Assembly: GCA_027314665.1 (NCBI GenBank)
Contig: DAHVAK010000099.1
Location: forward strand, 1-39,090
Direction: 5' to 3'
From: Spirochaetales bacterium
GTDB taxonomy: Bacteria; Spirochaetota; Spirochaetia; DAHUYW01
Length of the DNA stretch: 39,090 nt
The position numbers were made by a program, and so were the translations under genes. The notes under the pieces are model-generated. The model ran no database searches and was not told the origin of the DNA. It saw only the letters and a program-made list of their open reading frames with translations. Below, one piece after another: positions 13,614 through 34,726 of this stretch. Numbering within the stretch: the first letter of the stretch is position 1; every line of letters starts with the position of its first letter.

Positions 13614-13744
13614 TCTATCAGGGTGCTGACGAATGCAAAGGTACCTGCCAAATCGGCGTTTTCTCGAACCAAATTGGAGCAAGAGGCTCAACCGAAAACG
13701 CCGTTTTGGCAGCGGGTCAATCACTTTGTCAGCACCCAGCTAGA
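13614..13744. repeat. MITE-like nested inverted repeat, copy 1
   Basis: Begins tctatCAGGGTGCTGAC and ends GTCAGCACCCAGctaga. Inner arms are GCCAAATCGGCGTTTTC / GAAAACGCCGTTTTGGC, with central CCAAATTGG. Counted by eye, about 94% identical to the reverse complement of copy 2. Confidence 0.85.
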
Positions 13745-14530: not shown

Positions 14531-15748
14531 CTATCGGCTTGCCATTTGGGCTGCCGCCTGCTTCTCGGTTTCGCGTCCCACGGTTCGCAGGGTCGTGAGC
14601 AGCAGGATCGCGAAGAGGAGCAGGAAGGGAACCGCGAGGGTCACAGCGTTCAGGGTTATCGCCATTCGAGTCATCCCGAACATGTACTGCAGCATCAGAA
14701 GCGGCGGGCGGACGACCGCCGCCTGGAAATAGGCTCCGATCGCCGCGACCGCCCCCACGCCCAAGGCGTAGCCGAAGGCAAGACACGCCAGGGACTCCCC
14801 GACGAAGAGATTGCGCACGGTTGCGCGGGGAAAGCCGAGCGAGCGCAGCGTCCCGATCTCCTCGCGGCGATCGAAGATGTTCGTGAGCATGATCGAGTGG
14901 ATTCCGATGAGGAGCGCAAGAAAGATGATCATCGCCATGGTGCCAAACATGATGATGTTGCTCGTTCCCAAGGAGAGGAGGAAGCGGACGAACTGATCGT
15001 CCCGATAGCCCTTGACCGGGAAATCCTTCACCTTTGCGTGAAGCTCACGCACCATCGCGGGGATGCCGCGCTCGTCCTTGACGTATACCTTATAGAAGGG
15101 AAAGGCGTCGCCGAGCTCGCTCATGGCCGCGTAGTCCTGCGCCCTCACCGTGATTCCCTCGTCGTACCAGGGCGCCGAGGCGCGGTAGATTCCCATGACC
15201 ACGAACTCCATCGCATTGCGGGCGCCGAAGGCCGACGGAATGAAGACCGTGATGCTGTCTCCCACGTTGAGCCCGTAGCGCTCAGCCTCCACCGTGGTCA
15301 CGAGGGCGCCGTATTCGTCGCCGGGTCCCGGGAAAGCTCCTGCCACGAGCTCGGTATGCTCGCGGTACGGGGCATCCTTTTCGAAGTCGGTGGCGGTCAC
15401 CATGACGTAGGAGCGGCTCGTTCCGGCCTGGATCTCGTCATAGGAGACTACCCAGGGAGTAAGAACCGCCGTGTTCGGGTGGCCCTGAAGGTAGTCGCGC
15501 ACCGCCTTCGCCTGCTCCGAGTAGGAAGGGATTTCCTCCTCCTTGAACTCGAAGTCGTCCTTGCGGGAGACCCAGAGGTGTCCAGTCCATTTCGCTATGG
15601 TGTCGGTTCGGATGTGCTCGGTGACTCGCGCCCCGAGGGCGAACGCGAAGACCAAGACTGCGGAGCTCAAGAAACCGGCGATGATGATGAAGGCGGCGCG
15701 CATCGGTCGCCGCAGGATGTTCATCGCAACGTAGCGGATGAGTTCCAC
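14531..15748 (-). CDS. ABC transporter permease, FtsX/LolC-E type
   Basis: MELIRYVAMNILRRPMRAAFIIIAG; IFDRREEIGTLRSLGFPRATVRNLFVGES (FtsX/MacB core motif). Confidence 0.85.
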   Translation of the reverse strand: MELIRYVAMNILRRPMRAAFIIIAGFLSSAVLVFAFALGARVTEHIRTDTIAKWTGHLWVSRKDDFEFKEEEIPSYSEQAKAVRDYLQGHPNTAVLTPWVVSYDEIQAGTSRSYVMVTATDFEKDAPYREHTELVAGAFPGPGDEYGALVTTVEAERYGLNVGDSITVFIPSAFGARNAMEFVVMGIYRASAPWYDEGITVRAQDYAAMSELGDAFPFYKVYVKDERGIPAMVRELHAKVKDFPVKGYRDDQFVRFLLSLGTSNIIMFGTMAMIIFLALLIGIHSIMLTNIFDRREEIGTLRSLGFPRATVRNLFVGESLACLAFGYALGVGAVAAIGAYFQAAVVRPPLLMLQYMFGMTRMAITLNAVTLAVPFLLLFAILLLTTLRTVGRETEKQAAAQMASR

Positions 15749-19076: not shown

Positions 19077-20057
19077 CTAGGAATCAAGCTCCCCGAGCTC
19101 ATTGACGGAGTGCTGCGGCCGTCCGGTCGTGAGGGCCGCAGCGACGTTCTGCGCGGCCCTGGTCTTGAGCTCCGACATGGATTCCTCGCTGTACCACGCC
19201 GCATGGTCCGAAAGGATGACGTTCTCGAGCTGATACAGGGGGCTCTCGGGCGCCGGAGGCTCGGTCTCAAAGACATCGAGCCCGGCGCCTGCAATCCGCT
19301 TCTGCCGCAGCGCCTCGACGAGGGCAGGCTCGTCGATCACCGCCCCGCGCGAGGTGTTGATGAGGATGGCGGTGGGGCGCATCAGGGCGATCTCCCTCGC
19401 TCCGATCAGCCGCCGAGTCGCCTCGTTCAGGAGGGTGTGAAGGGATATGAAGTCCGACTCCTGCAGGAGCCTCGGTAGGTCGACCGGCAGCGCCCCGGCG
19501 GAGAGGATGGTGTCGCGATCGACGAGGGGATCGTGGACAAGGACCTGCCCGAGGTCGAAGCCCGAGAGCTTGCGGTGCAGGCGCCGCCCGATGGTTCCGT
19601 AGCCGACGATCCCGAGCGTCCTTCCTGCGATTCGGTGGCAGGGCTGCTCCTTCTGCAGATCCCAAGCGCCCTCCCGAATCCGCTTGTCGCGGTACGGGAT
19701 CTTGCGGGCGCATCCGAGGAGAAGCGCGACGGCGTGGTCGGTGACCTCCTCGGCCGCATAATCGGGAACGCGGGCAACCCAGATCCCCTTCCGTGTTGCC
19801 GCGGGAACGTCGACGCTGTCGTAGCCCACTCCGTACCGAGAGATGACCCGGCATTTCGGCAGGCTCTCGATGATCTCCGCGGTCAGGGGGAAAAGGTTCG
19901 CGAGAATGGCGTCCGCCTGCGCGAGCTCCCTCTTCGCCTCCGCCGCCGACGCGAGATTGCGGACCAGAAGGCGAGCGTCGACCTCGCCGAGCACACGTTT
20001 TTCCTCTTCGTAGCTTCCGTAGCGATCGTCGGTTACGACGACAGTGAATTTGGCCAT
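19077..20057 (-). CDS. D-isomer-specific 2-hydroxyacid dehydrogenase (CtBP/SerA-like)
   Basis: MAKFTVVVTDDRYGSYEEEK; RVISRYGVGYDSVDVPAAT, TLGIVGYGTIGRRLHRKL, ILINTSRGAVIDEPALVEAL, GAGLDVFETEP, LSDHAAWYSEES. Confidence 0.9.
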   Translation of the reverse strand: MAKFTVVVTDDRYGSYEEEKRVLGEVDARLLVRNLASAAEAKRELAQADAILANLFPLTAEIIESLPKCRVISRYGVGYDSVDVPAATRKGIWVARVPDYAAEEVTDHAVALLLGCARKIPYRDKRIREGAWDLQKEQPCHRIAGRTLGIVGYGTIGRRLHRKLSGFDLGQVLVHDPLVDRDTILSAGALPVDLPRLLQESDFISLHTLLNEATRRLIGAREIALMRPTAILINTSRGAVIDEPALVEALRQKRIAGAGLDVFETEPPAPESPLYQLENVILSDHAAWYSEESMSELKTRAAQNVAAALTTGRPQHSVNELGELDS

Positions 20058-20103
20058 TGAGCTCTCCCGCACGGCGCGCATGCCCGGCGGGGGTGTCGGC
20101 GCT

Positions 20104-21072
20104 CTACTTTCTGCGCGTCCGCTCGCCGCCGGCAAAGATGATGGCAAGGATTATGAACCCGGTGATGATGTAGCGCAAGCCGACGGCGATCCCGAGAATA
20201 TCGAGCAGATAGAGAATGAGAAGCAAGAGCAGCGAGGCACCCACGATGCCGGGCACGTTCGAGTTGCCCCCCGCGATGCTGCTCCCTCCGATGACTGGAA
20301 CCGCGATCGAGTTGAGAAGATACTCGTGGCCCATCCCGAGCGTTACGCCGCCGCCGAACGCAGAGAGCAGGATCCCCGTCAGACCCGCGAAGGTCCCGCA
20401 AAGGATGTAGGTCACGAGCTTGTTCGCATCGACCCGAATGGCGGCAAGGGAGGCCGCTTTCGTGTTTTGGCCGATCGCATGAAGATGGCGCCCGAAGCGC
20501 GAGCGCATGAGGACGAAGTGCATCACCACGGCGATCGCGAGGACCAGGAGAAACAGAAGAGGCACGATGCTGAGCCTCATGGTCACGAAGTGGCTGAGGC
20601 TGTCGGGGGGTTTGATCTGAAGGCCTCGGAAGAAGACGATCGCGAGGGTCTGCACAATGAAGCCCGAGGCGAGGGTGGCGATCATGGGTGGGACCCGGAC
20701 CATGCGTATGAGCCCGAAATTGAAGGCACCGACGGCGGCCCCGACGACCAGGCCGGCGAGAATCCCGAGGGCTATCTCGTTGTTCGCTGCGTTCATCACC
20801 TTCATGGCGACGAAGCCGGCGAGTCCGATGGTGTAGGGAATGGAAAGGTCGATGTTTCCCGGTCCCAGGGTGATGACGAGCATCTGGCCCATGCCGACGA
20901 GGATGAAAAAGGAGGCAAAGCTCGCGGAGGCCGTCAGGGTTCCGATTGCATCGGAGGAGACGGCGGTTATGACGAGATAGGCGATGACTACTCCGACATA
21001 GGACCAAAGCCACTTGACCGCAGCCAGTTCCCGAAGGGAGAAGAGGCGGGTATCCTGCCTGAGACTAGACAT
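20104..21072 (-). CDS. Sugar ABC transporter permease (RbsC-like)
   Basis: FFILVGMGQMLVITLGPGNIDLSI, HAIGQNTKAASLAAIRVD, IAVPVIGGSSIAGG (BPD_transp_2 family). Confidence 0.88.
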   Translation of the reverse strand: MSSLRQDTRLFSLRELAAVKWLWSYVGVVIAYLVITAVSSDAIGTLTASASFASFFILVGMGQMLVITLGPGNIDLSIPYTIGLAGFVAMKVMNAANNEIALGILAGLVVGAAVGAFNFGLIRMVRVPPMIATLASGFIVQTLAIVFFRGLQIKPPDSLSHFVTMRLSIVPLLFLLVLAIAVVMHFVLMRSRFGRHLHAIGQNTKAASLAAIRVDANKLVTYILCGTFAGLTGILLSAFGGGVTLGMGHEYLLNSIAVPVIGGSSIAGGNSNVPGIVGASLLLLLILYLLDILGIAVGLRYIITGFIILAIIFAGGERTRRK

Positions 21073-22030
21073 AGCGGGCCTCTCCCTGCGCCCTGGCGAT
21101 GCCGTTCAAGAACAGGACAACGAGGAGGATGCTGCCCTGGGCCCCAATCTGCCAGTCGGGCGAGAGCTGAAGAAAGGTAAGAAGGGTTCCCACGAGGGTC
21201 ATCGTGCAGGCCCCGAGCACGGCGCCGACCGCGGAGACCTTCCCTCCCGAGAACGAGCCGCCGCCGAGCATGACTCCCGCAACGGAAAGGAGGGTGTAGT
21301 TGGTGGCGACGTTGGCGTCGGCGCTCGTCGTGATTCCCGCGAGGGCGGTTCCCGCAAGGATGCCGAAGAGCCCCACGAGCCCGAAGACGGCGGCATCCAA
21401 CCGCGTTATCGAGTGGCCGGACAGCGAGACCGCTTTCGCGTTGCCTCCGATCCCGCGCAGGAGAATGCCGAAGCTCGTCCGAAAGAGGACCAGGTGGCCG
21501 ATGATTGCGAGAGCCACCAGGAACAACACGGGAAAGGGCACGAGGGGGGTGTTCACGGACACCGCCTTCTGGATGATCCCGGGGACGCTCCCTCCGGGAG
21601 TCGGCTGGATCGTTACGGCAAGCCCGGTCCAGATGAACGACATCCCGATCGTGACGACGATCGAGGAGAGCTTCCGCAGATTGAGGAAGGCTCCAATGAG
21701 CAGGTAGATCGCCACGATCCCGAGGAGAATCGCCAAGCCGAGACCGAGACTCCGCGGAATGACCGTGCCGACGACGCAGGTCACGAGGCTCACCAGATTG
21801 CCCATCGAGAAATCGATCTCCCCGATTGCCATCGCGAACATCTGGCCCATGGTGGCAAGGCTCAAGGGGATGGCCATGTTCAGAAGCAGCTGCAGCCCCA
21901 CGTACTTGAGCACGATCGGGCGAAGCGCGGCGATCGGAATGAGGATCACCAGCACCGAGAGGATGGGAAGGAGGAGGATCTGAAGGTTGTTTCCCCGTCG
22001 CAGGGCGCTCAACGGATTCATCTCTGTCAC
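21065..22030 (-). CDS. Sugar ABC transporter permease (RbsC-like)
   Basis: LSLATMGQMFAMAIGEIDFSMGNLVSLV, RGIGGNAKAVSLSGHSITRLDA, GVMLGGGSFSGGKVSAVGAVLGA. Confidence 0.88.
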   Translation of the reverse strand: MTEMNPLSALRRGNNLQILLLPILSVLVILIPIAALRPIVLKYVGLQLLLNMAIPLSLATMGQMFAMAIGEIDFSMGNLVSLVTCVVGTVIPRSLGLGLAILLGIVAIYLLIGAFLNLRKLSSIVVTIGMSFIWTGLAVTIQPTPGGSVPGIIQKAVSVNTPLVPFPVLFLVALAIIGHLVLFRTSFGILLRGIGGNAKAVSLSGHSITRLDAAVFGLVGLFGILAGTALAGITTSADANVATNYTLLSVAGVMLGGGSFSGGKVSAVGAVLGACTMTLVGTLLTFLQLSPDWQIGAQGSILLVVLFLNGIARAQGEARYV

Positions 22031-22050: not shown

Positions 22051-23520
22051 CTAGAACGAGGACTTGAGGATGTCCTCTTCGGTGGCCTCCTCGCCGGCAA
22101 GCTCGGCAAGGATCTTCCCCGATTTGAAGACGTAGATCCGATCGCAGTATTTCAGCTCATCCATCTCCGTCGTGTACCACACGAAGGCTCTTCCCTTGCC
22201 GGCCTCCTCGAGGATCAGCTTGTAGAGCTCATCCTTGGTGCCGACATCCACCCCACGGGTCGGATCGTCCATGAGCACGAGGGGGGAGGCGGACTCAAGG
22301 CAGCGCGCGAAGAGGACCTTCTGCTGGTTGCCGCCGCTCAAGGAGAGGATTCCGCGTCCGACGGAATCGGTCCTGATGTCGATGATCTTCTTCCACTTGT
22401 TCGCGACCGCGTTCTCGCGCTTCGGGTCGATGAGCAAGAGGCGCCTGAGCTTCTCGTAGACCTGAACGCTCAGGTTCTTGGCGATCGACCAGACCGGGAA
22501 GATCCCGTCCGATTGTCGATCGCCCGGCACGAAGGTGGCAGGCCCTCGAATGCGATAGTCCCGATTGCGCCGGTAGTCGAACAGCCCGAGAAGGAGCCGG
22601 GTCTGCCCGTGTCCCGCGAGTCCCGTCAGGCCGACGATCTCTCCCTCGTGGACGCGGATGTGAAGCTCGCCGTTGTCGGAGGCCGGCTCGACGACCAGCG
22701 GAACTTCGGTGAATCTGTCGGCTCCCCGGCGCGCGCCTGCGGCGCCCGCGCCGCCTTCTTCCTGCTTCAGGGGCTTTGCCTCGCCCATCAGCTCGATGAT
22801 CGTCTGGCGCGAGGCCTGCCGGGTCTCGAGAACGCCGAGATTGCGCCCATCCCGCAGGACGGCGATCCGGTTGGTGCACGCGAGCACCTCGTCGAGGAGG
22901 TGCGAGATGTAGATGACGCTCAAGGGCTCGCCGCGAAGCGAGCGGATGTAATCGATCAGCTGTCGGGAGGTGTGATGGTCGAGCGCGCTCGTGGGCTCGT
23001 CGAGGATGAGGAGCTTCAGCGGCTGCTCCGAGGTCGAAAAGGCCTTCGCAATCTCAACCATCTGACGCTTGCCGAGCGAGAGGCTCTCCACCGCGTCACT
23101 TGCGCGAACCCCATGGCCGGGGAAGATGCGGTCCATCGTCTCCAGGATGATCCGTCCGAGCCTCCTCTGCCATCCGATGCCTCCGAGGGCCGGGTGAAAC
23201 ACCCGCATGTTCTCGACGACCGAGAGGTTCGGACAGAGGCTCAGCTCCTGGAACACCGCTCGGATGCCGAGGGCGTTGGCCGCATGAACGTCGTAGGCTT
23301 CATCGAGCTTTCTTCCATCGATCGAGATCTCCCCGGAAGACGGCAGGTAGCTTCCCGTCAAGATGTTCACGAGCGTGGACTTCCCTGCGCCGTTGTGCCC
23401 CACGATTCCGAGAGCTTCCCCCTCGAAGATCGAAAGGCTGAGGTCGTCGAGGGCGTGAGAGTGGATGAAGTACTTGTGGATGTTCGAAAGCTCTACGATC
23501 GCGCGTCTTTCATTCATCAT
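22051..23520 (-). CDS. Sugar ABC transporter ATP-binding protein with duplicated NBD (RbsA/MglA-like)
   Basis: MMNERRAIVELSNIHKYFIHSHALDDLSL; Walker A GHNGAGKSTLVN; LLILDEPTSALD; second half GLTGLAGHGQTRLLLGL, LSGGNQQKVLFARCL, VLMDDPTRGVDVG. Confidence 0.92.
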   Translation of the reverse strand: MMNERRAIVELSNIHKYFIHSHALDDLSLSIFEGEALGIVGHNGAGKSTLVNILTGSYLPSSGEISIDGRKLDEAYDVHAANALGIRAVFQELSLCPNLSVVENMRVFHPALGGIGWQRRLGRIILETMDRIFPGHGVRASDAVESLSLGKRQMVEIAKAFSTSEQPLKLLILDEPTSALDHHTSRQLIDYIRSLRGEPLSVIYISHLLDEVLACTNRIAVLRDGRNLGVLETRQASRQTIIELMGEAKPLKQEEGGAGAAGARRGADRFTEVPLVVEPASDNGELHIRVHEGEIVGLTGLAGHGQTRLLLGLFDYRRNRDYRIRGPATFVPGDRQSDGIFPVWSIAKNLSVQVYEKLRRLLLIDPKRENAVANKWKKIIDIRTDSVGRGILSLSGGNQQKVLFARCLESASPLVLMDDPTRGVDVGTKDELYKLILEEAGKGRAFVWYTTEMDELKYCDRIYVFKSGKILAELAGEEATEEDILKSSF

Positions 23521-23615
23521 CTCGCCGCCGCTGGAGCTGGTCCCGAAGACCGCGCGAGGCGGTTTCACGCCCTTTCGGGATGAAACCGCTCGCGACAATC
23601 CGAGAGCGAGCGCCC

Positions 23616-24701
23616 TTACTCCTCCGCGATGGGATCGGGCGGCTCGGGCTGCCCCGCCGTGGCAGTTGCGATGAGCTGCTGCACCCAGGACTGGGGATAG
23701 AACAGGGTGGCGACTCCGCCCTTCTGGGTATGCGACAGGAAGAAGTCGAGCTTGTCACTCGTGATCACGAGGGGGCGGATGTTCAGCTCCATCGGGACCT
23801 TCTTGCCGTTCAGGACCTCCAAGGCGGTCCAGAATGCAATCTGCACCGACGAGGGCTGGCTGCAGGCGGACCAGGTGTCGTAGCCGTTCTTGTCCTTCAT
23901 CTCCTTCCAGATTGCGAGCTCGTCGTAGCGGTTGCCCATCATGACCATGGGGATGGGGCGACCGGCATCCTTGAAGGCCATGACCGCCCCGTAGCCGTCG
24001 CCGCCCTGGTCCACCACGGCGTCGATCTTGGGAAGGGAGGGCAGAATCCCCGCTACCGCCTTCTGGGCGGTGGCCTCATCCCACTTGCCGTACACCGTTC
24101 CGACGACCTTCAGGTTCGGATATTCCTTCAGCCCCTGGACGATCCCTTCGTGAATCGCGTTGTCCACAAAGGTTCCGGGCAGGCCGCGAATCTCGAGGAG
24201 ATTCCCGGAGGTCGTGAGGTGCTTGGCGATGTACTCCACCTCGTGGCGCCCGTACCACTGGAAATCGATGATGATGCGGTACGCCTTTGGATTGGTCACG
24301 GCGTTGTCGAAGGCCACGACCGGAATCCCCGCGGCGACCGCCTTGTCGACTGCACCGTTGAGCGCGGTGGGGGACGCGGCGTCGAGCAGGATCGCGTTGT
24401 AGCCCTCGAGGATCAGATTCTGAATCTGGGCTGCCTGCTCGGCCGCCGAGCTCTCGTTCGTGGTAAATGCCGCCCCCTCGGCGATGAGCCCCTCGCTCTT
24501 TGCCTTGTCGACCACGAGCTGAAAGTCCCGGAGCATCTGCTGTCGCCACGAGTTTGCGGCATAGTCGTTGCTCAGCGCGATGCGCCATTTGGCCTTCGGC
24601 GCGCCGGCCTGCGCCCCCGTTCCCTGCTCCTTGCCGCCGGCGGCAAAGACACTCGCCGCGACCAGCAGCAACGCGGACACCAACAACGACACTCGCTTCA
24701 T
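23616..24701 (-). CDS. Sugar ABC transporter substrate-binding protein (periplasmic-binding type 1, RbsB-like)
   Basis: MKRVSLLVSALLLVAASVFAAGGKEQGTG; IQNLILEGYNAILLDAASPTALNGAVDKAVAAGIPVVAFD. Confidence 0.9.
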   Translation of the reverse strand: MKRVSLLVSALLLVAASVFAAGGKEQGTGAQAGAPKAKWRIALSNDYAANSWRQQMLRDFQLVVDKAKSEGLIAEGAAFTTNESSAAEQAAQIQNLILEGYNAILLDAASPTALNGAVDKAVAAGIPVVAFDNAVTNPKAYRIIIDFQWYGRHEVEYIAKHLTTSGNLLEIRGLPGTFVDNAIHEGIVQGLKEYPNLKVVGTVYGKWDEATAQKAVAGILPSLPKIDAVVDQGGDGYGAVMAFKDAGRPIPMVMMGNRYDELAIWKEMKDKNGYDTWSACSQPSSVQIAFWTALEVLNGKKVPMELNIRPLVITSDKLDFFLSHTQKGGVATLFYPQSWVQQLIATATAGQPEPPDPIAEE

Positions 24702-24960
24702 GAGGTCCTCCTTGACGTACATTTCCTATTCGATACCGACTCCGATATCGTCTTTTTCTCGAGTAGCGCAGCAAGCGCCGAGCTGCAGTGGTGAGGTTTT
24801 TAGCCGAGCGGGGTCTGACGCAGAGGGAGAGAGGCTACGTGTGAGGCAAGCGGAGCTGTCGAGGAAGCGAATCGGCCCTCCTCGAGATGACGACGTTACG
24901 GTGCACCAAATCATTCGCACCTCCGCCGGTGATGCGCCGTGCGACCTTTGTGATGCACTC

Positions 24961-24988
24961 ATTGTATATCGTATACAATAGGTGTCAA
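24961..24988 (-). promoter_or_regulatory. Predicted sigma70-type promoter with overlapping GntR operator, upstream of the ABC transporter operon
   Basis: Minus strand: TTGACA (24988-24983), 16 bp spacer, TACAAT (24966-24961). The palindrome ATTGTATA-TCG-TATACAAT (24961-24979) has perfect 8 bp arms. Confidence 0.72.
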
Positions 24989-25061
24989 GGAAAATGTTGC
25001 CCTGCGGGGCGCCGTCCGCCGCGGCGGGATGGCTCGCGCCCTGCAGCGCACGATCCGTAGG

Positions 25062-25191
25062 CTATCAGGGTGCTGACAAAGTGATTGACCCGCTGCCAAA
25101 ACGGCGTTCTTGGTTGAGCCTCTTGCCCCAATTTGGTTCGAGAAAACGCCGTTTTGGCAGGTACCTTTGCGTTTGTCAGCACCCTGCTAGA
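25062..25191. repeat. MITE-like nested inverted repeat, copy 2 (inverted relative to copy 1)
   Basis: Perfect 15 bp terminal inverted repeat CAGGGTGCTGACAAA / TTTGTCAGCACCCTG. Inner perfect 16 bp inverted repeat CTGCCAAAACGGCGTT (25093-25108) / AACGCCGTTTTGGCAG (25145-25160). Confidence 0.88.
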
Positions 25192-25852
25192 CGGCCTCGA
25201 GGAAGCTCAGATGATGCAGGATGTGCTGCTCGAGGAGCTCGTCGATCTCCTGCACTGCGTTCCGCTCGAGGAGGCTCACGAGCATCTCGTGCTGGGCCAG
25301 ATAGGAGGAGAGCTTGTCGGAAGGCAGGTGCTGTTTGAGTCGAACCAGCTGGAACTTCGCATCCAGGGTGGTCAGCATGTTGAACAGCTCCGCGTTGCCG
25401 GTCCTCCGCGCAATCCCGAGATGAATGGCGCTGTCCGCCTCGTGCACGGAGGCGTAGTCGCCCCGCCTGTTCGCCTCGTCGCATCTGGAGGCGAGCTCGT
25501 GGAGGGGGGCGAGGAGCTCGGGGGTCGCCATGGGCGCCACGGTGCGAAAGGAGAGCCGCTCCAGGGCGAGGCGCACGGTCGCGATGTCCCGGGCCTCCCT
25601 CATGTCGATGGAGGCAACGAAAGCGTAGCTCCTCGGCTTGATGACGACGAGTCCGTACTCTGCGAGCTTTCGGATGGCCTCACGGACAGGGGTGCGGCTT
25701 ACCTGGAGCTGCTCGGCGACCCTGCTCTCGGGGATTTTCTCGCCGCCCTCGAGCGCCCCCGAGAGAATCAGGCGCTTGATGTGCTCGTAGACCTGATCGG
25801 AGATGCTTTTTCGCTCGATGATCGCGTCGGGAAGGCTCTCTCGCTCAAGCAT
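25187..25852 (-). CDS. GntR-family (FadR/FCD-type) transcriptional regulator
   Basis: ISDQVYEHIKRLILSGALEGGEKIPESRVAEQLQVSRTPVREAIRKLAEYGLVVIKP winged HTH; FCD-like C-terminus (HEADSAIHLGIARRTGN, HEMLVSLLERN). Start ATG at 25852; its TAG stop lies at the repeat copy 2 edge. Confidence 0.92.
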   Translation of the reverse strand: MLERESLPDAIIERKSISDQVYEHIKRLILSGALEGGEKIPESRVAEQLQVSRTPVREAIRKLAEYGLVVIKPRSYAFVASIDMREARDIATVRLALERLSFRTVAPMATPELLAPLHELASRCDEANRRGDYASVHEADSAIHLGIARRTGNAELFNMLTTLDAKFQLVRLKQHLPSDKLSSYLAQHEMLVSLLERNAVQEIDELLEQHILHHLSFLEAV

Positions 25853-26801
25853 GGCCACGCTCTCGTTTCTTCCGCACGACGGCATGGGCGGTCTCCACGA
25901 TGCGCGAAACTCCCATTCCATAGCTCTCGAGAAGGGTCTCATAGGGGCCGCTCTCGGCGAAGCGATCGGAGATGCCGACCCGAGCGATCGGCACGGGATG
26001 AAGCTCGGCGGTGAGCTCGGCGATCGCGCCCCCGAGACCGCCCACGATGCTGTGCTCTTCGGCGGTGACGAAGGCTCCCGTCTCCCGCGCGGCGGCAAGC
26101 ACCCCTTCGCGGTCGAGGGGCTTGATCGTGTGCACCTCGATGACCCGAGCCGAGACGCCCTCGGCGGCAAGCCGCTCCGCGGCAGCGAGGCTGCGGCTCA
26201 CCATCAGTCCGCAGCACAGGATGGAAAGGTCGCTCCCTTCGCGCAGGGTGATCGCCTTCCCGATTTCGGGGGCGTAGCGTTGGTCGAAGAGGACCGGCAC
26301 CTCGTTTCGATTCAGGCGAAGGTAGACGGGGCCTTCCCAGGCGGCGACCTGCGGCAGCAGCTTTGCCACCGCGACCGGATCGCTCGGCACGACGACCGTC
26401 ATGTTCGGGAGGCTGCGCAGGATCGCGATATCGGTGATCGCGTGGTGCGTGGGCCCGTCGAAGGAGTCGGACAGGCCCGCGTAGGCTCCCATGAGCTTGA
26501 CGTTCGCCCGTCCATAGCAGAGGTGGGTGCGAATCATCTCGAGGGCCCGGGTCGCGAAGAGGAAGGCGAAGGTATTGGCGAAGGGGATGTAGCCGCTGTG
26601 GGCGAATCCCACCGCGACGTCCACCAGCGACTGTTCCGCGATGCCGACGTTGAAGAATCGGCTGGGGAAGGCCTCCTCGAACATGTAGCTGAAATCGGAG
26701 TTCGAAACGTCGGCGCTCAAGGCAACCACCCTTTCGTTCGCCTGGCCGAGGGCGACGAGCGCCTCGCCGTAGGCCTTGCGCATCGACACTACCTCTCCCA
26801 T
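25845..26801 (-). CDS. Transketolase, C-terminal subunit
   Basis: MRKAYGEALVALGQANERVVALSADVSNSDFSYMFEEAFPSRFFNVGIAEQSLVDVAVGFAHSGYIPFANTFAFLFATRALEMIR; split-transketolase Pyr and C domains. Confidence 0.92.
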   Translation of the reverse strand: MGEVVSMRKAYGEALVALGQANERVVALSADVSNSDFSYMFEEAFPSRFFNVGIAEQSLVDVAVGFAHSGYIPFANTFAFLFATRALEMIRTHLCYGRANVKLMGAYAGLSDSFDGPTHHAITDIAILRSLPNMTVVVPSDPVAVAKLLPQVAAWEGPVYLRLNRNEVPVLFDQRYAPEIGKAITLREGSDLSILCCGLMVSRSLAAAERLAAEGVSARVIEVHTIKPLDREGVLAAARETGAFVTAEEHSIVGGLGGAIAELTAELHPVPIARVGISDRFAESGPYETLLESYGMGVSRIVETAHAVVRKKRERGHA

Positions 26802-27679
26802 CGCGAAAGCTCCCTCTCCAGCTCCGCCAACCCTGCGGCGAACTGCTCGTCGTTCGGGGGCGAGCCGTGCCAGCGATGGTCGTACTCCATGAAGCTGACC
26901 CCTTTCCCCTTGACCGTGCGCGCGATGATGACGCTCGGGCGGGCATGCACTTCATCGGCGCGATCCAGGGCAGCGAGAATCTCCGCCACGTTGTGGCCGT
27001 GGATCTCCTGGACATGCCAGCCGAAGGCGGCCCACTTGTCCGCGATGGGCTCAGTCGGCATCACATCGGCGGTCGCCCCGGTCTGCTGGATGCCGTTGTA
27101 GTCGAGGATGACGGTGAGGTTCCCCAATCGGAACTTCGCGGCGGACATGATCCCCTCCCAGATCACCCCGGCGTTGATCTCCCCGTCGCCGACGATGACG
27201 TAGACCCGCGCGCCGGCCGCGCGCGCGGAGGGGGCGGACTGGCTGGAGGGCTTTTCGCCCCTCATGCGAAGGGCCAGGGCCATCCCGGTCCCGATCGCTA
27301 TCCCATGGCCGAGCGGACCCGCGGCGATCTCCACCCCCGGGGTCTTCGCCGGATCGGGATGACCCTGCAGGGTGCTGCCGGCCGAGCGAAAGGTCGGCAG
27401 CAGCGCGGGATCGAAAAAGCCGCGATGGGCGAGGACCGCGTAGAGCATGGCGCAGGCGTGTCCCTTGCTGAAGAGCAGGCGATCGCGCTCCGGCCAGTCG
27501 GGCCGCAGCGGGTCGATCAGGAGGTGATGGAAGTACAGGGAGGTGAGGATCTCCGCGACCGAAAAGGCTCCCCCGATATGGCCGCTCTGGATGTTCTTCA
27601 CCATGCGCAGCACATCGATGCGGTAGCGCAGGGCGCGGGCGGTGAGATCTCGAACAAGCTCTTCGCTGTGGTAGTGCAC
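26789..27679 (-). CDS. Transketolase, N-terminal (TPP-binding) subunit
   Basis: GHIGGAFSVAEILTSLYF, DRLLFSKGHACAMLYAVLAHRGFF, GPLGHGIAIGTGMALA, YVIVGDGEINAGVIWEGIMSAAKFRLGNLTVILDYNGIQQTG. Confidence 0.93.
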   Translation of the reverse strand: MHYHSEELVRDLTARALRYRIDVLRMVKNIQSGHIGGAFSVAEILTSLYFHHLLIDPLRPDWPERDRLLFSKGHACAMLYAVLAHRGFFDPALLPTFRSAGSTLQGHPDPAKTPGVEIAAGPLGHGIAIGTGMALALRMRGEKPSSQSAPSARAAGARVYVIVGDGEINAGVIWEGIMSAAKFRLGNLTVILDYNGIQQTGATADVMPTEPIADKWAAFGWHVQEIHGHNVAEILAALDRADEVHARPSVIIARTVKGKGVSFMEYDHRWHGSPPNDEQFAAGLAELERELSRWER

Positions 27680-27692
27680 TGCCTCTCTCCCC

Positions 27693-28445
27693 TCAGTCGC
27701 GGAGGGTTCCCCCGTTGACGTTCATCGTCTCGGCGGTCACGAAGCTCGCACGCGGGTGGGCGAGGTAGGCGACCGCGAAGGCGATATCCTCCGGCGTCCC
27801 GAGCCGCTTCACGATGCTCTTGTCGATGAAGCGCTGATTCTCCTCGGGGGTGACTGAGCCGGACATCTCGGAGGCGATCCGTCCGGGGCAGATGGCGTTG
27901 ACCGTTATGCCGTCGGATCCGACCTGCTGCGCGAGGTTGCGGGTAAAGGCGAGCACCCCGCCCTTCGAGGCGGAGTAGTGCAGGGCGGCGATCGTTCCCC
28001 CGTTCTTGCCGGCCTCGGAGGAGATGTTGATGATCCTGCCGTACCTTCGCCGCCGCATCGCCGGCAGGACGGCCTTGCAGAGGTGGAAGTGCGCCTTGAG
28101 GTTGACGGCGAGCACGAGGTCCCACTCCTCGTCGCTTATCTCCTCGATGGCGTGGAGCGGATGGATGCCGGCGTTGTTGACCAGGATGTCGATTCGAGCG
28201 AAGCGCTCCTCGACCTCGCGCACAAAATCGGAGATCTCCTGCGCTCGGGAGAGGTCGACCCGCCGGGCGAGGATCTGTCCGCTCGCGCTCGCCGCGAGCT
28301 CCTGCGCAAAGGCGGTCAGCTTCTCGCTTCTGAGGTCGCAGATCGCGAGATTTGCCCCCTGGGAGGCCAGCTCCGCGGCGATGGCCCGTCCGATGCCCTG
28401 CGCCGCGCCGGTAACGATGGCGGTCTGCCCCACGAAGTCACCCAT
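27693..28445 (-). CDS. Short-chain dehydrogenase/reductase (SDR)
   Basis: AIVTGAAQGIGRAIAAELA (TGxxxGIG), ILVNNAGIHP, INISSEAGKNGGTIAALHYSASKGG (YxxxK), ICPGRIASEM. Confidence 0.93.
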   Translation of the reverse strand: MGDFVGQTAIVTGAAQGIGRAIAAELASQGANLAICDLRSEKLTAFAQELAASASGQILARRVDLSRAQEISDFVREVEERFARIDILVNNAGIHPLHAIEEISDEEWDLVLAVNLKAHFHLCKAVLPAMRRRRYGRIINISSEAGKNGGTIAALHYSASKGGVLAFTRNLAQQVGSDGITVNAICPGRIASEMSGSVTPEENQRFIDKSIVKRLGTPEDIAFAVAYLAHPRASFVTAETMNVNGGTLRD

Positions 28446-28468
28446 CTCACCCCCCGCGCTCCCTCACC

Positions 28469-28507
28469 TTGCGCGAATTATTGTATATCGTATACTGCAA
28501 TCGTCAA
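28469..28507. promoter_or_regulatory. Divergent promoter region with shared GntR operator
   Basis: Minus strand: TTGACG (28507-28502), 16 bp spacer, TACAAT (28485-28480). Plus strand: TTGCGC (28469-28474), 16 bp spacer, TATACT (28491-28496). Palindrome core GTATA-TCG-TATAC at 28483-28495, identical to the core at 24964-24976. Confidence 0.7.
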
Positions 28508-28533: not shown

Positions 28534-29574
28534 ATGAAGGCTCTGGTAAAGTACGCGGAGGGCCCCGGAAACATGGAGATCCGAGAGGTCCCGGAGCCCT
28601 CGGCGGGGCGCGGTCAGGTGAAGATCGCGGTCGCGAAAACGGGAATCTGCGGATCGGATCTCCATATTCTCCACAGCGACATCTCCATTCCGGTGAAGCC
28701 CCCGGTGGTCACGGGCCACGAGTTCGCCGGCACGCTCTGCGAGATCGGCCCGGAGGTCGAGGGCTGGAAGATCGGCGATCGGGTCGTCTCGGAGACCGCG
28801 ATGAGCTACTGCGGGAGCTGCCCTGCCTGCAGGAGCGGTTTCTACAACCTCTGTCCCGAGCGCAAGACCCTCGGCTACTGGTACGACGGGGCCTTTGCCC
28901 CCTTTACCGTGGTGCCCGCGGCCCGGCTCCACCGCCTGCCCGACGGCGTCTCCCTGGAGGATGCGGCGCTCGCCGAGCCCCTCGCCTGCATCACCCATGC
29001 GGTCATGGAGCTGACGACGATTGCGCCCGAGGACGTCGTCCTCGTTTCCGGTCCCGGGGCGGTGGGGCTGGCGACCCTGCAGGTAGCGATGGCCCACGGC
29101 GCTCGGGTGATCGTCGCGGGCACGAGCGCCGACGCCGCTCGCTTGGAGGCGGCGCGGGAGCTCGGGGCCCTTCGGGTGCTGAACGTGGAGAGGGAGCCGC
29201 TTGCCGAGATCGTGCGGGAGCTTACCGACGGGGCGGGGGTCGACGTGGTGCTCGAGTGCTCCGGCAGCGCGCGGGCGGTGGACGCGGGCCTCTCCGCCCT
29301 CAAGCGCCGAGGTCAGTTCACCCAGATCGGTCTCTTCGGCAAGGCGATCACCGTGAGCTTCGAGCTGATCTGCTACCGAGAGCTCCGGGTCACGGGCTCC
29401 CTCGGCTCGCGGTTTTCGAGCTGGGAGAAGGCCCTCGCGCTCATGGCAAGCGGAGCCGTCCGGACCCGCCCCCTCATCTCGCACCTTCTCCCGATGCGGG
29501 AATGGTCGGAGGCCTTCGCGATGTTCGAGCGAAAAGAGGGCTTGAAGCTGTTGCTTGACCCGCACGAAGCCTAA
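28534..29574 (+). CDS. Zinc-dependent MDR alcohol/polyol dehydrogenase
   Basis: MKALVKYAEGPGNMEIREVPEPSAG; GICGSDLHILHSD, VTGHEFAGTLCEIG, structural-zinc cysteines CGSCPACRSGFYNLC, VSGPGAVGLATLQVA. Confidence 0.92.
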   Translation: MKALVKYAEGPGNMEIREVPEPSAGRGQVKIAVAKTGICGSDLHILHSDISIPVKPPVVTGHEFAGTLCEIGPEVEGWKIGDRVVSETAMSYCGSCPACRSGFYNLCPERKTLGYWYDGAFAPFTVVPAARLHRLPDGVSLEDAALAEPLACITHAVMELTTIAPEDVVLVSGPGAVGLATLQVAMAHGARVIVAGTSADAARLEAARELGALRVLNVEREPLAEIVRELTDGAGVDVVLECSGSARAVDAGLSALKRRGQFTQIGLFGKAITVSFELICYRELRVTGSLGSRFSSWEKALALMASGAVRTRPLISHLLPMREWSEAFAMFERKEGLKLLLDPHEA

Positions 29575-29604: not shown

Positions 29605-30897
29605 GTGCAGCACGATCGGTGGGACCGCCACGGCGTCATCCAGGCAATGCTTGGTCCGGTTCCGCTGCCGAGAATGGCGCTCGTTCGCCAGCTCTTCGAC
29701 CGCAGCGAGATCGGGGAGGTCGAGCCCGCCGTGGAGCGCGAGCTTTCGCAGCGGTGGGTGGCCGAGGCGGTGAGACCCGGGACGAGCGTCGCCGTCACCG
29801 TCGGAAGCCGGGGGATCGCGAACATCGCCTTGATAACCCGCGCGGTCGTTCGGGGTCTCAAGGCCCTCGGCGTGCAACCCTTTCTCATTCCCGCCATGGG
29901 CAGCCACGGCGGGGCGACCTCGGAGGGCCAGCGAGAGCTGCTCGAGGGATACGGCGTGAGCGAGGAGTCGGTCGGGGCTCCGATTCGCGCGACGATGGAT
30001 ACGCGGATCATCGCCCGCACGGCGAGCGGACAGCCCGTGCACCTCGATCGCTACGCCGCGGAGGCCGACGGGATCGTGGTGGTCGGCCGGGTCAAGCCGC
30101 ACACCGCCTTCCGCGGAGACTACGAGAGCGGGCTCATGAAGATGATGGCCATTGGAATGGGCAAGCAGCGCGGAGCGGAGATCTGCCATGCCGACGGCTT
30201 CGGCAAGATGGCGGAGAGGGTCCGCGAGTTCGGCTCGGCGGTCCTCGCCAACGCGCCGATCCTCTTTGGAGTGGCCATCCTCGAGAACGCCTATGACCGG
30301 ACCGCCCGGATCGAAGCCGTTCCGCGGGAGGCCATCGCGCGCAGGGAGCCGCTCCTGCTCAAGGAGGCGCGGGGCCTCATGCCGCGCATTCTCTTCCCTG
30401 AGTTCGACGTGCTCGTCGTGGATACCATCGGGAAGAACTTCAGCGGCGACGGCGCCGATCCTAACATCACCGGGACCTACTGCACGCCCTTCGCAAGCGG
30501 GGGGCCGAGCTTTCAGCGCTACGTCATCCTCGACGCGAGCGAGGAGACCCACGGGAACTCCCTCGGGGTCGGCATGGCCGACATTACGACGAAGCGGCTC
30601 TTCGACAAGACCGACTTCGATGCGAGCTATCCGAACGCCCTGACGAGTCGCGTCATCAAGACCGTACGGATGCCGATGGTGCTGCAAAGCGACCGTCTCG
30701 CCCTCCAGGCGGCGATCTACACCTGCGTGAGTCTCGGGCCCAAGGGGGCGCGGGTCGTTCGGATTCCGAACACCTCCCATCTCGGCCTCATCGCGGTCTC
30801 GGAGGCCCTTGTTCCCGAGGCACTGGGCAATCCGGCGCTCGAGGTCGTCGAGGCGCCGAGGGAGCTGGCCTTCGATGCGGAGGGAAACCTCTTCTAG
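29605..30897 (+). CDS. LarA/DUF2088-superfamily protein (lactate racemase domain-like)
   Basis: GTG start after GAGGAGG. PFLIPAMGSHGGATSEGQRELLEGYGV, GIVVVGRVKPHTAFRGDYESGLMKMMAIGMGKQRGAE. Divergent from canonical LarA. Confidence 0.7.
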   Translation: MQHDRWDRHGVIQAMLGPVPLPRMALVRQLFDRSEIGEVEPAVERELSQRWVAEAVRPGTSVAVTVGSRGIANIALITRAVVRGLKALGVQPFLIPAMGSHGGATSEGQRELLEGYGVSEESVGAPIRATMDTRIIARTASGQPVHLDRYAAEADGIVVVGRVKPHTAFRGDYESGLMKMMAIGMGKQRGAEICHADGFGKMAERVREFGSAVLANAPILFGVAILENAYDRTARIEAVPREAIARREPLLLKEARGLMPRILFPEFDVLVVDTIGKNFSGDGADPNITGTYCTPFASGGPSFQRYVILDASEETHGNSLGVGMADITTKRLFDKTDFDASYPNALTSRVIKTVRMPMVLQSDRLALQAAIYTCVSLGPKGARVVRIPNTSHLGLIAVSEALVPEALGNPALEVVEAPRELAFDAEGNLF

Positions 30898-30902
30898 CAG
30901 AG

Positions 30903-32189
30903 ATGAAGCTGAAGCTGGCCTACGGAAAAACCGATCTTGCGATAAGCCTCCCGCCGAGCGCGGATGTGACCGTGGTGGAGCCGCGCTTCGTTCCGTCGGT
31001 CGGCGACCAACGGCGAGCGGTGACGGAGTCGCTGCGACGCCCGATCGGCAGGCCGCCCCTTCGCGAAGCGGTGAAGGCGAGCGACACGGTGGCGATCGTC
31101 TTCAGCGACATCACGCGCCCGACTCCGAACGACCTGCTCATCCCCGCGATCTTGGACGAGCTCCGCTCGGCGGGGGTTGCCGAGGAGCAGATCACGCTCT
31201 TCAACTCGACCGGAACCCACCGCCTGAACACACGCCAGGAGCTTTCGGGCATGCTCGGCGAAGAGGTCGTCGGGCGCTACCGGATCATCCAAAACGACGC
31301 GCGAGCGGAGAACGCCCACGCGTCGGTCGGAGTCACCTCGAGCGGCAACGAGATCAAGCTCCTCAAGGACTTTCTCGCCTGCTCCTTCAAGATCCTCACC
31401 GGCTTCATCGAGCCCCACTTTTTTGCCGGATTCTCCGGGGGAGGGAAGGCGGTCATGCCCGGCCTCGCGCATCTCGATACGGTGATGCGCAATCACAACG
31501 CGCGCAACATCGACGATCGCCGCTCGAGCTGGGGCATTCTCGCGGGGAATCCGATCCGCGACGAGGTCGAGGAGGCGGTGTCACTCGTGAGCCCCGATTT
31601 CCTGGTGAACGTCACGCTGAACAAGCACAAGGAGGTGACGCGATCCTTTGCCGGCGACTGGATCACGGCATACCGCGAGGGGGTCGAGTTCGTGAGGAAG
31701 ACCGCGATGAGAAGGGTCGACGCCCTCTTCGACATCGTGATCACCTCGAACTCAGGCTACCCCCTCGACCTGAACCTCTACCAGGCGGTGAAGGGGATGA
31801 GCGCCGCCGCGAAGGTGGCGAGGCCGGGCGGCTCGATCATCGTGGCTGCGGAGTGCTGGGACGGCATCCCGGATCACGGCTCCTTCGGGAGACTCCTTCG
31901 GGAGGCGCGGGACGCCGAGGATCTTCTCGCCCGCATCCGCTCCGAGGGCTTCATGGCCGACGACCAGTGGCAGGCGCAGATTCTCGCCTCGATCGTGCAG
32001 CGCTACGAGGTCTCCGTTTACTCCGGCGGGCTTACCCAAGAGCAGCTTGCGCAGGCTAAGCTTCGGCCCTGCCTCTCGATTGAGGGGAAGGTGGTGGAGC
32101 TCCTCGAGCGCTACGGCTCGAGTGCCCGGATCTGCGTGCTGCCCGAGGGACCGCAGACGATCCCCTACTACTATGAGGAGAACAGATGA
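30903..32189 (+). CDS. LarA homologue (nickel-pincer-dependent 2-hydroxyacid racemase/epimerase family)
   Basis: SDITRPTPNDLLIPAIL, NSTGTHRLNTRQEL, EPHFFAGFSGGGKAVMPGLAHLDTVMRNHNAR: these match LarA family His/Lys signature positions. Confidence 0.82.
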   Translation: MKLKLAYGKTDLAISLPPSADVTVVEPRFVPSVGDQRRAVTESLRRPIGRPPLREAVKASDTVAIVFSDITRPTPNDLLIPAILDELRSAGVAEEQITLFNSTGTHRLNTRQELSGMLGEEVVGRYRIIQNDARAENAHASVGVTSSGNEIKLLKDFLACSFKILTGFIEPHFFAGFSGGGKAVMPGLAHLDTVMRNHNARNIDDRRSSWGILAGNPIRDEVEEAVSLVSPDFLVNVTLNKHKEVTRSFAGDWITAYREGVEFVRKTAMRRVDALFDIVITSNSGYPLDLNLYQAVKGMSAAAKVARPGGSIIVAAECWDGIPDHGSFGRLLREARDAEDLLARIRSEGFMADDQWQAQILASIVQRYEVSVYSGGLTQEQLAQAKLRPCLSIEGKVVELLERYGSSARICVLPEGPQTIPYYYEENR

Positions 32190-32953
32190 ACCTACGATTC
32201 GACGGAAAGGTGGTCCTCGTGACCGGCGCAAGCACGGGGATCGGGGCCGCAATTGCGAAGGCCTTCGGCGCCGGCGGGGCGAAGGTCGCGGTCCACTACA
32301 ACGCGAGCGAGGCGCAGGCGAGAGCGGTCGCGCGCGAGATCGACGGCGGGCGCGGGGAGGCTGCCGTGCTCGTGCGGGCGGACCTGCTGGACCCGCCGGC
32401 GGCGGAGCGGATGGTGGGAGAGGCGATCGCCCGCTTCGGGCGGCTCGACATCCTCGTGAACAACGCAGGGGGGCTCCTTGCGCGCCGTCCGATCGACGAG
32501 ATGTCCGATGAGGTCTACGCGCGGATCATGGAGCTGAACATGGGCTCGACCTTCCGTGTCTCGAAGGCGGCGATCCCTCATTTGCGCAGGGCCGGCGGCG
32601 GGGCCATCATCAACATGACCTCGATCGCCGCGCGCAGCGGCGGGGGCGGTGGGGCAGTCATCTACGCCGCCTCCAAGGCGGCGGTCTCCACCTTCACGCG
32701 GGGGCTCGCGAAGGAGCTTGCCGCGAACGGGATCCGGGTCAACGCGATCGCCCCGGGGATCGTCCTCACCCCCTTCCACGACAAGTACACGAAGCCCGAA
32801 GCGCTCGCGGCGATGATCGGAGGGATCCCCCTCGGGCGCGGGGCGACGGCCGAGGAGGTCGCGGGCACGGCGCTCTTCCTCGCCTCCGAGGAGCTGTCGA
32901 GCTTCATCACCGGAGAGGTCATCGAAGTGAACGGCGGCGCCCTGATGGCATAG
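32186..32953 (+). CDS. Short-chain dehydrogenase/reductase (SDR)
   Basis: VVLVTGASTGIGAAIAKAFGAGG, ILVNNAGGLL, INMTSIAARSGGGGGAVIYAASKAAV, IAPGIVLTPFH. Overlaps the LarA-homologue stop by 4 bp (ATGA). Confidence 0.93.
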   Translation: MNLRFDGKVVLVTGASTGIGAAIAKAFGAGGAKVAVHYNASEAQARAVAREIDGGRGEAAVLVRADLLDPPAAERMVGEAIARFGRLDILVNNAGGLLARRPIDEMSDEVYARIMELNMGSTFRVSKAAIPHLRRAGGGAIINMTSIAARSGGGGGAVIYAASKAAVSTFTRGLAKELAANGIRVNAIAPGIVLTPFHDKYTKPEALAAMIGGIPLGRGATAEEVAGTALFLASEELSSFITGEVIEVNGGALMA

Positions 32954-33097: not shown

Positions 33098-34726
33098 ATG
33101 GCCGAGATCGTCCTATTCAATGGTACCGTTATTCCCCTATCGCGGACGGGAGAGCGGCAGAGCGCGGTGCTCCTTCGCGACGGGAAGATAGCGGCGGTGG
33201 GAGGGGATCGCGAGGTCCTTGCCGCGGCGGGGCCGGAGGCTCGGCGCATCGACCTCGCCGGGCGGACGGTCGTCCCCGGTTTCAACGACGACCACCTGCA
33301 CGTCGCGGGGATGGGCAATCACCTCGACACCCCGAATCTCCGCGGCATGAGCAAGGCAGAGATTCTCGCCCATCTCAGCGAGCGCTACCCGGCGCCGCGG
33401 GGCCTCGATCCGATCTTCGGCGTGCAATGGGACTACCCGACCTGTCCCGATCCCCACGCACGCGATCTCGACCGTCTCTTCGACGCTACCCCGGTCATTC
33501 TCTTTCAGTACTCCGGCCACGCGATGTGGGCCAACAGCGCCGCGCTTCGCCTGATCGGCATCGACGAGCGCACGAGGGAGTGGCCCTCCGGCGGTCCGGT
33601 CCGCGACTCGGCGGGGCATCTGACCGGAATCGTGCGGGAGCCCTACGGACATCCGGGGTTTCAGAAGATCTTCCGGCGGCGACAATTCGATGCCGGCTCG
33701 ATTCGCCGCGGCATCCCGGCAGCGCTCGAGCTCCTGCGCGAGAGCGGGGTAACCTCGGTGCAGGACAACACCTGGGTGCGGGCGGGCCTCGCGACCTACC
33801 GGGAGCTGCACCGCGCCGGGGAGCTGACCTGCCGGATCTCCTGTTGGTCGCTCGGGGAGACGCCGAAACCCTTGCGCTATCTGTTCGAGCATGACCGCTT
33901 CGATCCGGAGTGGTACGCGCGCGGACCGCGGAAGTACTTCCTTGACGGCGCCTTTTCCAGCCGCACCGCCTATCTCGTCGAGCCCTACGCCGACGAGAGC
34001 GACACCTCGGGAAAGGGCAAGAGCCCGCAGGAGATCGAACGGCTCATGGCCGACACCGCGCGCTCGGGGCGGCAGATCGCCTGCCATTCGATCGGCGATC
34101 GATCGACCCAGCAGTACTGCGACGGGGTCGAGAGGACGCTCGCGCGCTACCCCGGCGTTCGGGAGATGCGGTGGCGCGTCGAGCACGGTCAGCTGATTCG
34201 CCCCGAGGACATCGAGCGGCTGCGGGGGCTGGGGATTGTCATTTCAGCGCAGCCCCATGCCCTCTCCGACCCCGAGAAGGACCGGCGCCTCCTCGGGGAG
34301 AAGCGGGCGGAGCGCGCCTATCCCTACCGCTCGCTCCTCGACGCCGGGGTCCCCCTTGCCTTCGGGTCCGACTTCCCTGGAGAGGGCACCTACGATCCGC
34401 TGCTCGGGATCCATCTGACGGTCAACCGCGAGGGGCCGGAGGCTATCACCCCCGAAGAGGCACTCGCCTGCTACACCCTCGGAAGCGCCTACGCGCAGTT
34501 CGAAGAGGAGCGCAAGGGGACGATCGAGGTGGGAAAGCTCGCCGACCTGGCGCTCCTTTCGGACGATCCGACCGCGGTGCGCCGGGAAGCCATCCGCGAG
34601 ATCAAGGTCGAGATGAAGATCGTCGCGGGCAGGATTGTCTACGAGCGCTCCCCCGAAGGGCGGGGCGTCAGCTCGCGGGGCGGCCTTCGGCGGGCGCCGG
34701 CAGCGTCTCGTCGCGCAGCACCCTGA
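33098..34726 (+). CDS. Amidohydrolase family protein (YtcJ-like, Amidohydro_3 type)
   Basis: RBS GGGAGGA then MAEIVLFNGTVIPLSR; GRTVVPGFNDDHLHVAGMG, FGVQWDYP, VTSVQDNTWV, ACHSIGDRSTQQYCDGVE, WRVEHGQLIRPEDIERLRGLGIVISAQP, FGSDFPGEGTYDPLLGIHLTVNRE. Confidence 0.87.
   Translation: MAEIVLFNGTVIPLSRTGERQSAVLLRDGKIAAVGGDREVLAAAGPEARRIDLAGRTVVPGFNDDHLHVAGMGNHLDTPNLRGMSKAEILAHLSERYPAPRGLDPIFGVQWDYPTCPDPHARDLDRLFDATPVILFQYSGHAMWANSAALRLIGIDERTREWPSGGPVRDSAGHLTGIVREPYGHPGFQKIFRRRQFDAGSIRRGIPAALELLRESGVTSVQDNTWVRAGLATYRELHRAGELTCRISCWSLGETPKPLRYLFEHDRFDPEWYARGPRKYFLDGAFSSRTAYLVEPYADESDTSGKGKSPQEIERLMADTARSGRQIACHSIGDRSTQQYCDGVERTLARYPGVREMRWRVEHGQLIRPEDIERLRGLGIVISAQPHALSDPEKDRRLLGEKRAERAYPYRSLLDAGVPLAFGSDFPGEGTYDPLLGIHLTVNREGPEAITPEEALACYTLGSAYAQFEEERKGTIEVGKLADLALLSDDPTAVRREAIREIKVEMKIVAGRIVYERSPEGRGVSSRGGLRRAPAASRRAAP

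Follow-up and report, generated by a model that had tools for sequence, protein, structure and literature searches.

The gene cluster studied here carries two matching palindromic sites, each set in a promoter, with a gene for a GntR-family regulator between them, which raises the question of whether this regulator controls the operons on both sides and in response to what. We addressed it in a window of 39,090 nucleotides from a Spirochaetales bacterium (the whole stretch of DNA analysed) and in the 3.64 Mb genome to which the window belongs. We consider it very likely that this cluster forms a local regulon for the catabolism of a sugar or sugar acid, governed at both sites by an autoregulated FCD (VanR-like) repressor that a carboxylate releases. 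Very probably we are dealing with a local repressor switch of an ordinary sort, from a well-known family; the regulon is a new one of a known kind, and the kind of regulation is not new.

The transporter operon lies on the minus strand and encodes the substrate-binding protein (Peripla_BP_4; 23616–24722), the AraG/GguA-like ATPase (22051–23598) and two permeases (21065–22030 and 20104–21072) of a sugar ABC transporter, followed by a D-2-hydroxyacid dehydrogenase as the last gene (19077–20147). The gntR operon, also on the minus strand, begins with a FabG-like short-chain dehydrogenase (SDR; 27693–28445), continues with the N-terminal (tktN; 26789–27679) and C-terminal (tktC; 25845–26801) subunits of a split transketolase and ends with the regulator gene (25187–25852). 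Divergent from it, the plus strand encodes a zinc-dependent MDR dehydrogenase that resembles threonine and polyol dehydrogenases (28534–29574), two LarA-like proteins (29605–30897, with a weak Lar_N match and a score under the DUF362 cut-off, and 30903–32189, with Lar_N and LarA_C), a second short-chain dehydrogenase (32186–32953) and an amidohydrolase (Amidohydro_3; 33098–34726). The amidohydrolase gene starts about 145 bp past the preceding gene, and its membership of the operon is thus uncertain. The tandem LarA-like genes (29605–32189) are possibly a sugar-acid epimerase pair.

Reading the window confirmed the two sites reported in the preliminary description, together with the 16 contiguous bases that they have in common, and showed the palindrome at the first site to be longer than had been described. 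Operator 1 (24961–24979, unstranded; ATTGTATATCGTATACAAT) is a perfect palindrome over all 19 nt, in which the 8-bp arms of ATTGTATA-TCG-TATACAAT flank the central TCG and a 17-mer core occupies 24962–24978. Operator 2 (28480–28498, unstranded; ATTGTATATCGTATACTGC) has symmetry limited to GTATA-TCG-TATAC. The divergent genes for the SDR (start codon at 28445) and the MDR dehydrogenase (start codon at 28534) are separated by 88 bp, and the centre of operator 2, at 28489, is the middle of that gap. The operator as predicted here spans 17 bp, TTGTATAC-N-GTATACAA, and so extends beyond the GTATA-N3-TATAC palindrome. Read on the minus strand, both sites give GTATACGATATACAAT, preceded at equal distance by TTGACA or TTGACG; the start of TTGAC stands 10 nt from the 17-mer in each case.

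Each site overlaps a near-consensus minus-strand promoter of the same geometry, as had been proposed. The transporter-operon promoter (24961–24988, minus strand; TTGACA-N16-TACAAT) matches at 11 of 12 positions, and operator 1 spans its spacer and −10 element; the promoter of the SDR-tktN-tktC-gntR operon (28480–28507, minus strand; TTGACG-N16-TACAAT) matches at 10 of 12. Each is the single promoter-like match in its region, and a promoter scan of both regions returned these two and nothing else, against 0.1 in shuffled sequence. A plus-strand promoter for the MDR-LarA operon had also been suggested at the second site. The candidate is indeed present (28469–28496; TTGCGC-N16-TATACT), but it is weak: it matches at 8 of 12 positions, falls under the scan threshold and was read from the sequence, being absent from the scan output. 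Between the first promoter and the substrate-binding protein gene runs a leader of about 240 nt (window 24702–24953), which contains no known RNA, as an Rfam search of the window found no family.

A regulator-free explanation of the likeness between the sites would be chance, or a shared AT-rich, TATAAT-like promoter consensus, and half of the motif does overlap the −10 element TACAAT. Base composition, however, predicts about 0.02 matches to TTGTATA-N3-TATAC in the genome, and pattern scans found it in exactly two places, both at this gene cluster and 3.5 kb apart, with none for the reversed-pattern control; the frequent random occurrence that would have spoken against the proposed regulon was thus not seen. 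The 19-mer at up to three mismatches likewise occurs in these two places alone. The 10-mer core TTGTATACAA at one mismatch occurs at nine genomic places, site 1 among them, which places the specificity in the long form. Within the window, five strand matches at up to two mismatches compare with a shuffle mean of 0.03. Since the motif also emerges from the loci of relatives and disappears when these are shuffled (see below), we regard an origin without a regulator as extremely improbable.

The regulator is a protein of 221 aa with an N-terminal GntR winged helix-turn-helix (Pfam 1.3e-17, 63.7 bits, cut-off 27) and a C-terminal FCD domain (1.9e-18, 67.5 bits, cut-off 24.3). A search against solved structures groups it with GntR-family regulators, 7xp0, 3sxy and 4p9f among them, several of which are FCD proteins. 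Across 17 aligned orthologues, the SRTPxRE recognition helix, with the DNA-contact residues S52, R53, T54, P55, R57 and E58, is invariant, as are H144, H188 and H210 of the predicted metal site, at which D140 is nearly so. The operator contributes a further FadR-subfamily trait, a palindrome with TKGT...ACMA boxes, present as TTGTATAC-N-GTATACAA. By its predicted features the protein is a member of the FadR subfamily, combining the GntR winged helix-turn-helix, the FCD domain, the TKGT...ACMA palindrome and an Asp/Asn with three His, and its 221-aa length and the 2-nt core spacing suggest the VanR group. No named NCBIfam equivalog scored above its curated cut-off (phnR_burk gave 104 bits against 271.5). 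A close-relative search of named genomes with the single regulator protein found none, and a profile search returned chiefly distant FCD proteins.

The stop codon of gntR is supplied by an inverted-repeat element of about 117 bp, TA[G/A]CAGGGTGCTGACAAA...TTTGTCAGCACCCTG..TA, with window copies at 25069–25185 and 13621–13737. The genome has at least 40 copies, mostly 90–95% identical (examined in L069–L076 and L166–L185), and the element is not in Rfam. In 21 of 29 copies its end is the TAG or TAA stop of an open frame of at least 80 codons; counted by ends, this is the case for 24 of 46, compared with 20% of the window's TAG/TAA codons. Two readings suit its appearance: a TA-duplicating MITE that inserts at stop codons, or a 3′-end repeat.

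Phylogenetic footprinting supports the proposed binding of both sites by the GntR protein whose gene lies between them. Within the class sample, 45 further genomes encode orthologues of the regulator, at 34–48% identity. We ran motif discovery on 30 non-redundant loci with an FCD-GntR orthologue, excluding the window, with palindromic symmetry imposed, one or no site per locus and random starting words. The search converged on TTGTATACaGTATACAA (TTGTATAC-N-GTATACAA) with a score of 209, compared with 27–39 for dinucleotide shuffles and 42 for loci of weaker paralogues. Applied to the window, the resulting matrix, learned from the relatives, gave 29.4 bits at operator 1 (E = 3.7e-4 for 3.64 Mb) and 22.2 bits at operator 2 (E = 0.07 for 3.64 Mb, of moderate significance by itself); the next best score was 9.3 bits. 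A third window match, at 15081–15097, was rejected as chance (9.3 bits, E = 0.5 in 39 kb). An alignment of the sites in which symmetry was not imposed showed one half to be stronger than the other at many of them. With each site turned so that its better half comes first, a strong ATTGTATAC core emerges, followed by a near-invariant AC nine nucleotides from the core centre.

The motif also tracks the orthologue across 395 genomes. At one mismatch, the strict pattern occurs in 38 of 46 genomes with an orthologue and in 108 of 349 without one (Fisher p = 2e-11, a value that overstates independence because the genomes share ancestry); it is missing in the other eight orthologue genomes, and the same-genus genome G001 has neither orthologue nor motif. 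The matches in about 31% of genomes without an orthologue would be chance in AT-rich genomes or sites of other FCD proteins with similar specificity.

Site placement in the relatives resembles that in the window, both in relation to TTGAC and in relation to split-transketolase and transporter genes. TTGAC stands 10–13 nt ahead of the 17-mer at 7 of 46 sites, compared with 0.33 expected, and these seven TTGAC-operator promoters align in a common layout. Many genomes have a split transketolase next to the gntR orthologue or close to it, often divergently and with the motif in between. In genome G016 (L042), the site at 7802 is upstream of a transketolase operon, 7 kb from gntR, and in G080 (L039) the site at 7627 is between gntR and a sugar ABC transporter, comparable to operator 1 ahead of such a transporter in the window. 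Other genes that adjoin sites or belong to the same clusters encode TctABC transporters, a PdxA-like dehydrogenase, xylose-isomerase-like TIM barrels, iron alcohol dehydrogenases and LarA.

Some loci depart from this pattern. Locus L043 has three identical TTGTATACAATATGCAA sites (461, 9544 and 17098), spaced by 9.1 and 7.6 kb around a gntR orthologue; its neighbours include an aldehyde ferredoxin oxidoreductase and a methylmalonyl-CoA mutase gene, possibly a different regulon under the same regulator family. Adjacent tandem duplicates of the gntR orthologue are present in L068 (G206) and G341:C30. Identical TTGTATTCTGTATGCAG sites are found 125–190 bp upstream of distant FCD genes in Ensifer, Brucella and Symplocastrum (L099 5814, L104 5840 and L124 5876). 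With the 17-bp double-core form thus also found next to FCD genes of other phyla, this extension of the operator may be a general one.

Together with the precedent of Atu1419, these features suggest how the switch would work. GntR would bind the 17-bp operator over the spacer and −10 element of the transporter promoter, and the second operator where it overlaps the promoter of the operon for the SDR, the split transketolase and GntR itself, within the gap from which the dehydrogenase/LarA operon diverges. By likeness to Atu1419, the bound protein should stand in the way of RNA polymerase at both sites until a carboxylate at the predicted FCD metal site, probably a sugar acid that is imported or made by the pathway, releases it. 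The regulator would also limit its own level, since its gene closes one of the operons that it would repress. The gene content, namely the sugar ABC transporter, the two LarA-like proteins, the hydroxyacid dehydrogenase and the split transketolase, along with the PdxA-like and TctABC genes of relatives, suggests a sugar acid as ligand and substrate.

Two alternatives keep the operators and change the regulatory logic. GntR could be an activator, or could repress one side and activate the other at the divergent site, as operator 2 is common to divergent operons with unequal promoters, and weakness such as that of the plus-strand promoter is frequent among activated promoters. At both minus-strand promoters, however, the operator covers the spacer and −10 element, the classical position for occlusion, and the precedent, Atu1419, is a repressor; activation is therefore unlikely. 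The sites could instead belong to another FCD or GntR regulator while the local GntR controls something else. Cores of the TTGTATAC type are common to the VanR group and other FCD proteins (PMC4494728, PMC7797058), and the genome contains two more, weaker GntR protein matches. Yet the motif was learned from orthologue loci and is not found at paralogue loci, the presence of orthologue and motif coincides and both genomic copies of the site flank gntR, so that we judge a foreign regulator to be quite unlikely. Direct repression by the local GntR is the reading that we retain.

An elaboration of this repression, to which we give a small chance, is that the 17-bp operator combines two 10-bp FCD sites that overlap, with their GTATAC cores 7 bp apart, and is occupied by two dimers or one tetramer, and that the protein bridges operators 1 and 2 over 3.5 kb in a loop that switches the transporter and pathway operons together.

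A conserved FCD regulator thus travels in many genomes with split transketolase, LarA, PdxA-like and TIM-barrel isomerase genes, and its regulon and operator can now be tested. The operator can serve as a probe for further pathway genes, and identifying the ligand would reveal the substrate.

A literature search for the 17-bp operator in several spellings returned nothing relevant, and the nearest comparisons are with characterized FCD regulators. NanR of E. coli binds GGTATA direct repeats via an N-terminal extension (PMC8012715). Like the window protein it is a GntR/FCD regulator with closely spaced GTATA repeats, and its ligand, sialic acid, is a sugar acid. As GTATA repeats directly at 7-nt spacing in the window operator, we considered a NanR-like direct-repeat binder and rejected it: unlike NanR, the window protein has a short N-terminus before the winged helix-turn-helix in the alignment, and the unconstrained site alignment shows an inverted TTGT...ACAA repeat and no TGGTATA direct repeats.

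The published FadR-subfamily consensus has TKGT/ACMA boxes with 2-nt GT-AC spacing and an extra half-site 7–12 nt from the centre (PMC4494728). The window operator similarly has a TKGT-N2-ACMA core and an additional ACAA box 9 nt from the core centre, whereas at site 1 this additional box is perfect and yields a full 17-bp palindrome. Atu1419 of Agrobacterium fabrum, a VanR-group FCD repressor that contains zinc, binds ATGTATACAT at the −10 element and spacer of its promoters, its own included (PMC7797058). The window protein resembles it in combining a GntR winged helix-turn-helix with FCD, in sites over the −10 element and spacer, in having its own operon among the predicted targets and in a recognition-helix Arg predicted to contact the G of GTATAC. 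The metal-site pattern N137, H141, H192 and H214 of Atu1419 corresponds to D140, H144, H188 and H210 in the window protein. Pathway and ligand differ between the two systems, and, in contrast to the single 10-bp palindrome ATGTATACAT of Atu1419, the window operator is extended to 17 bp by a second GTATAC-like core.
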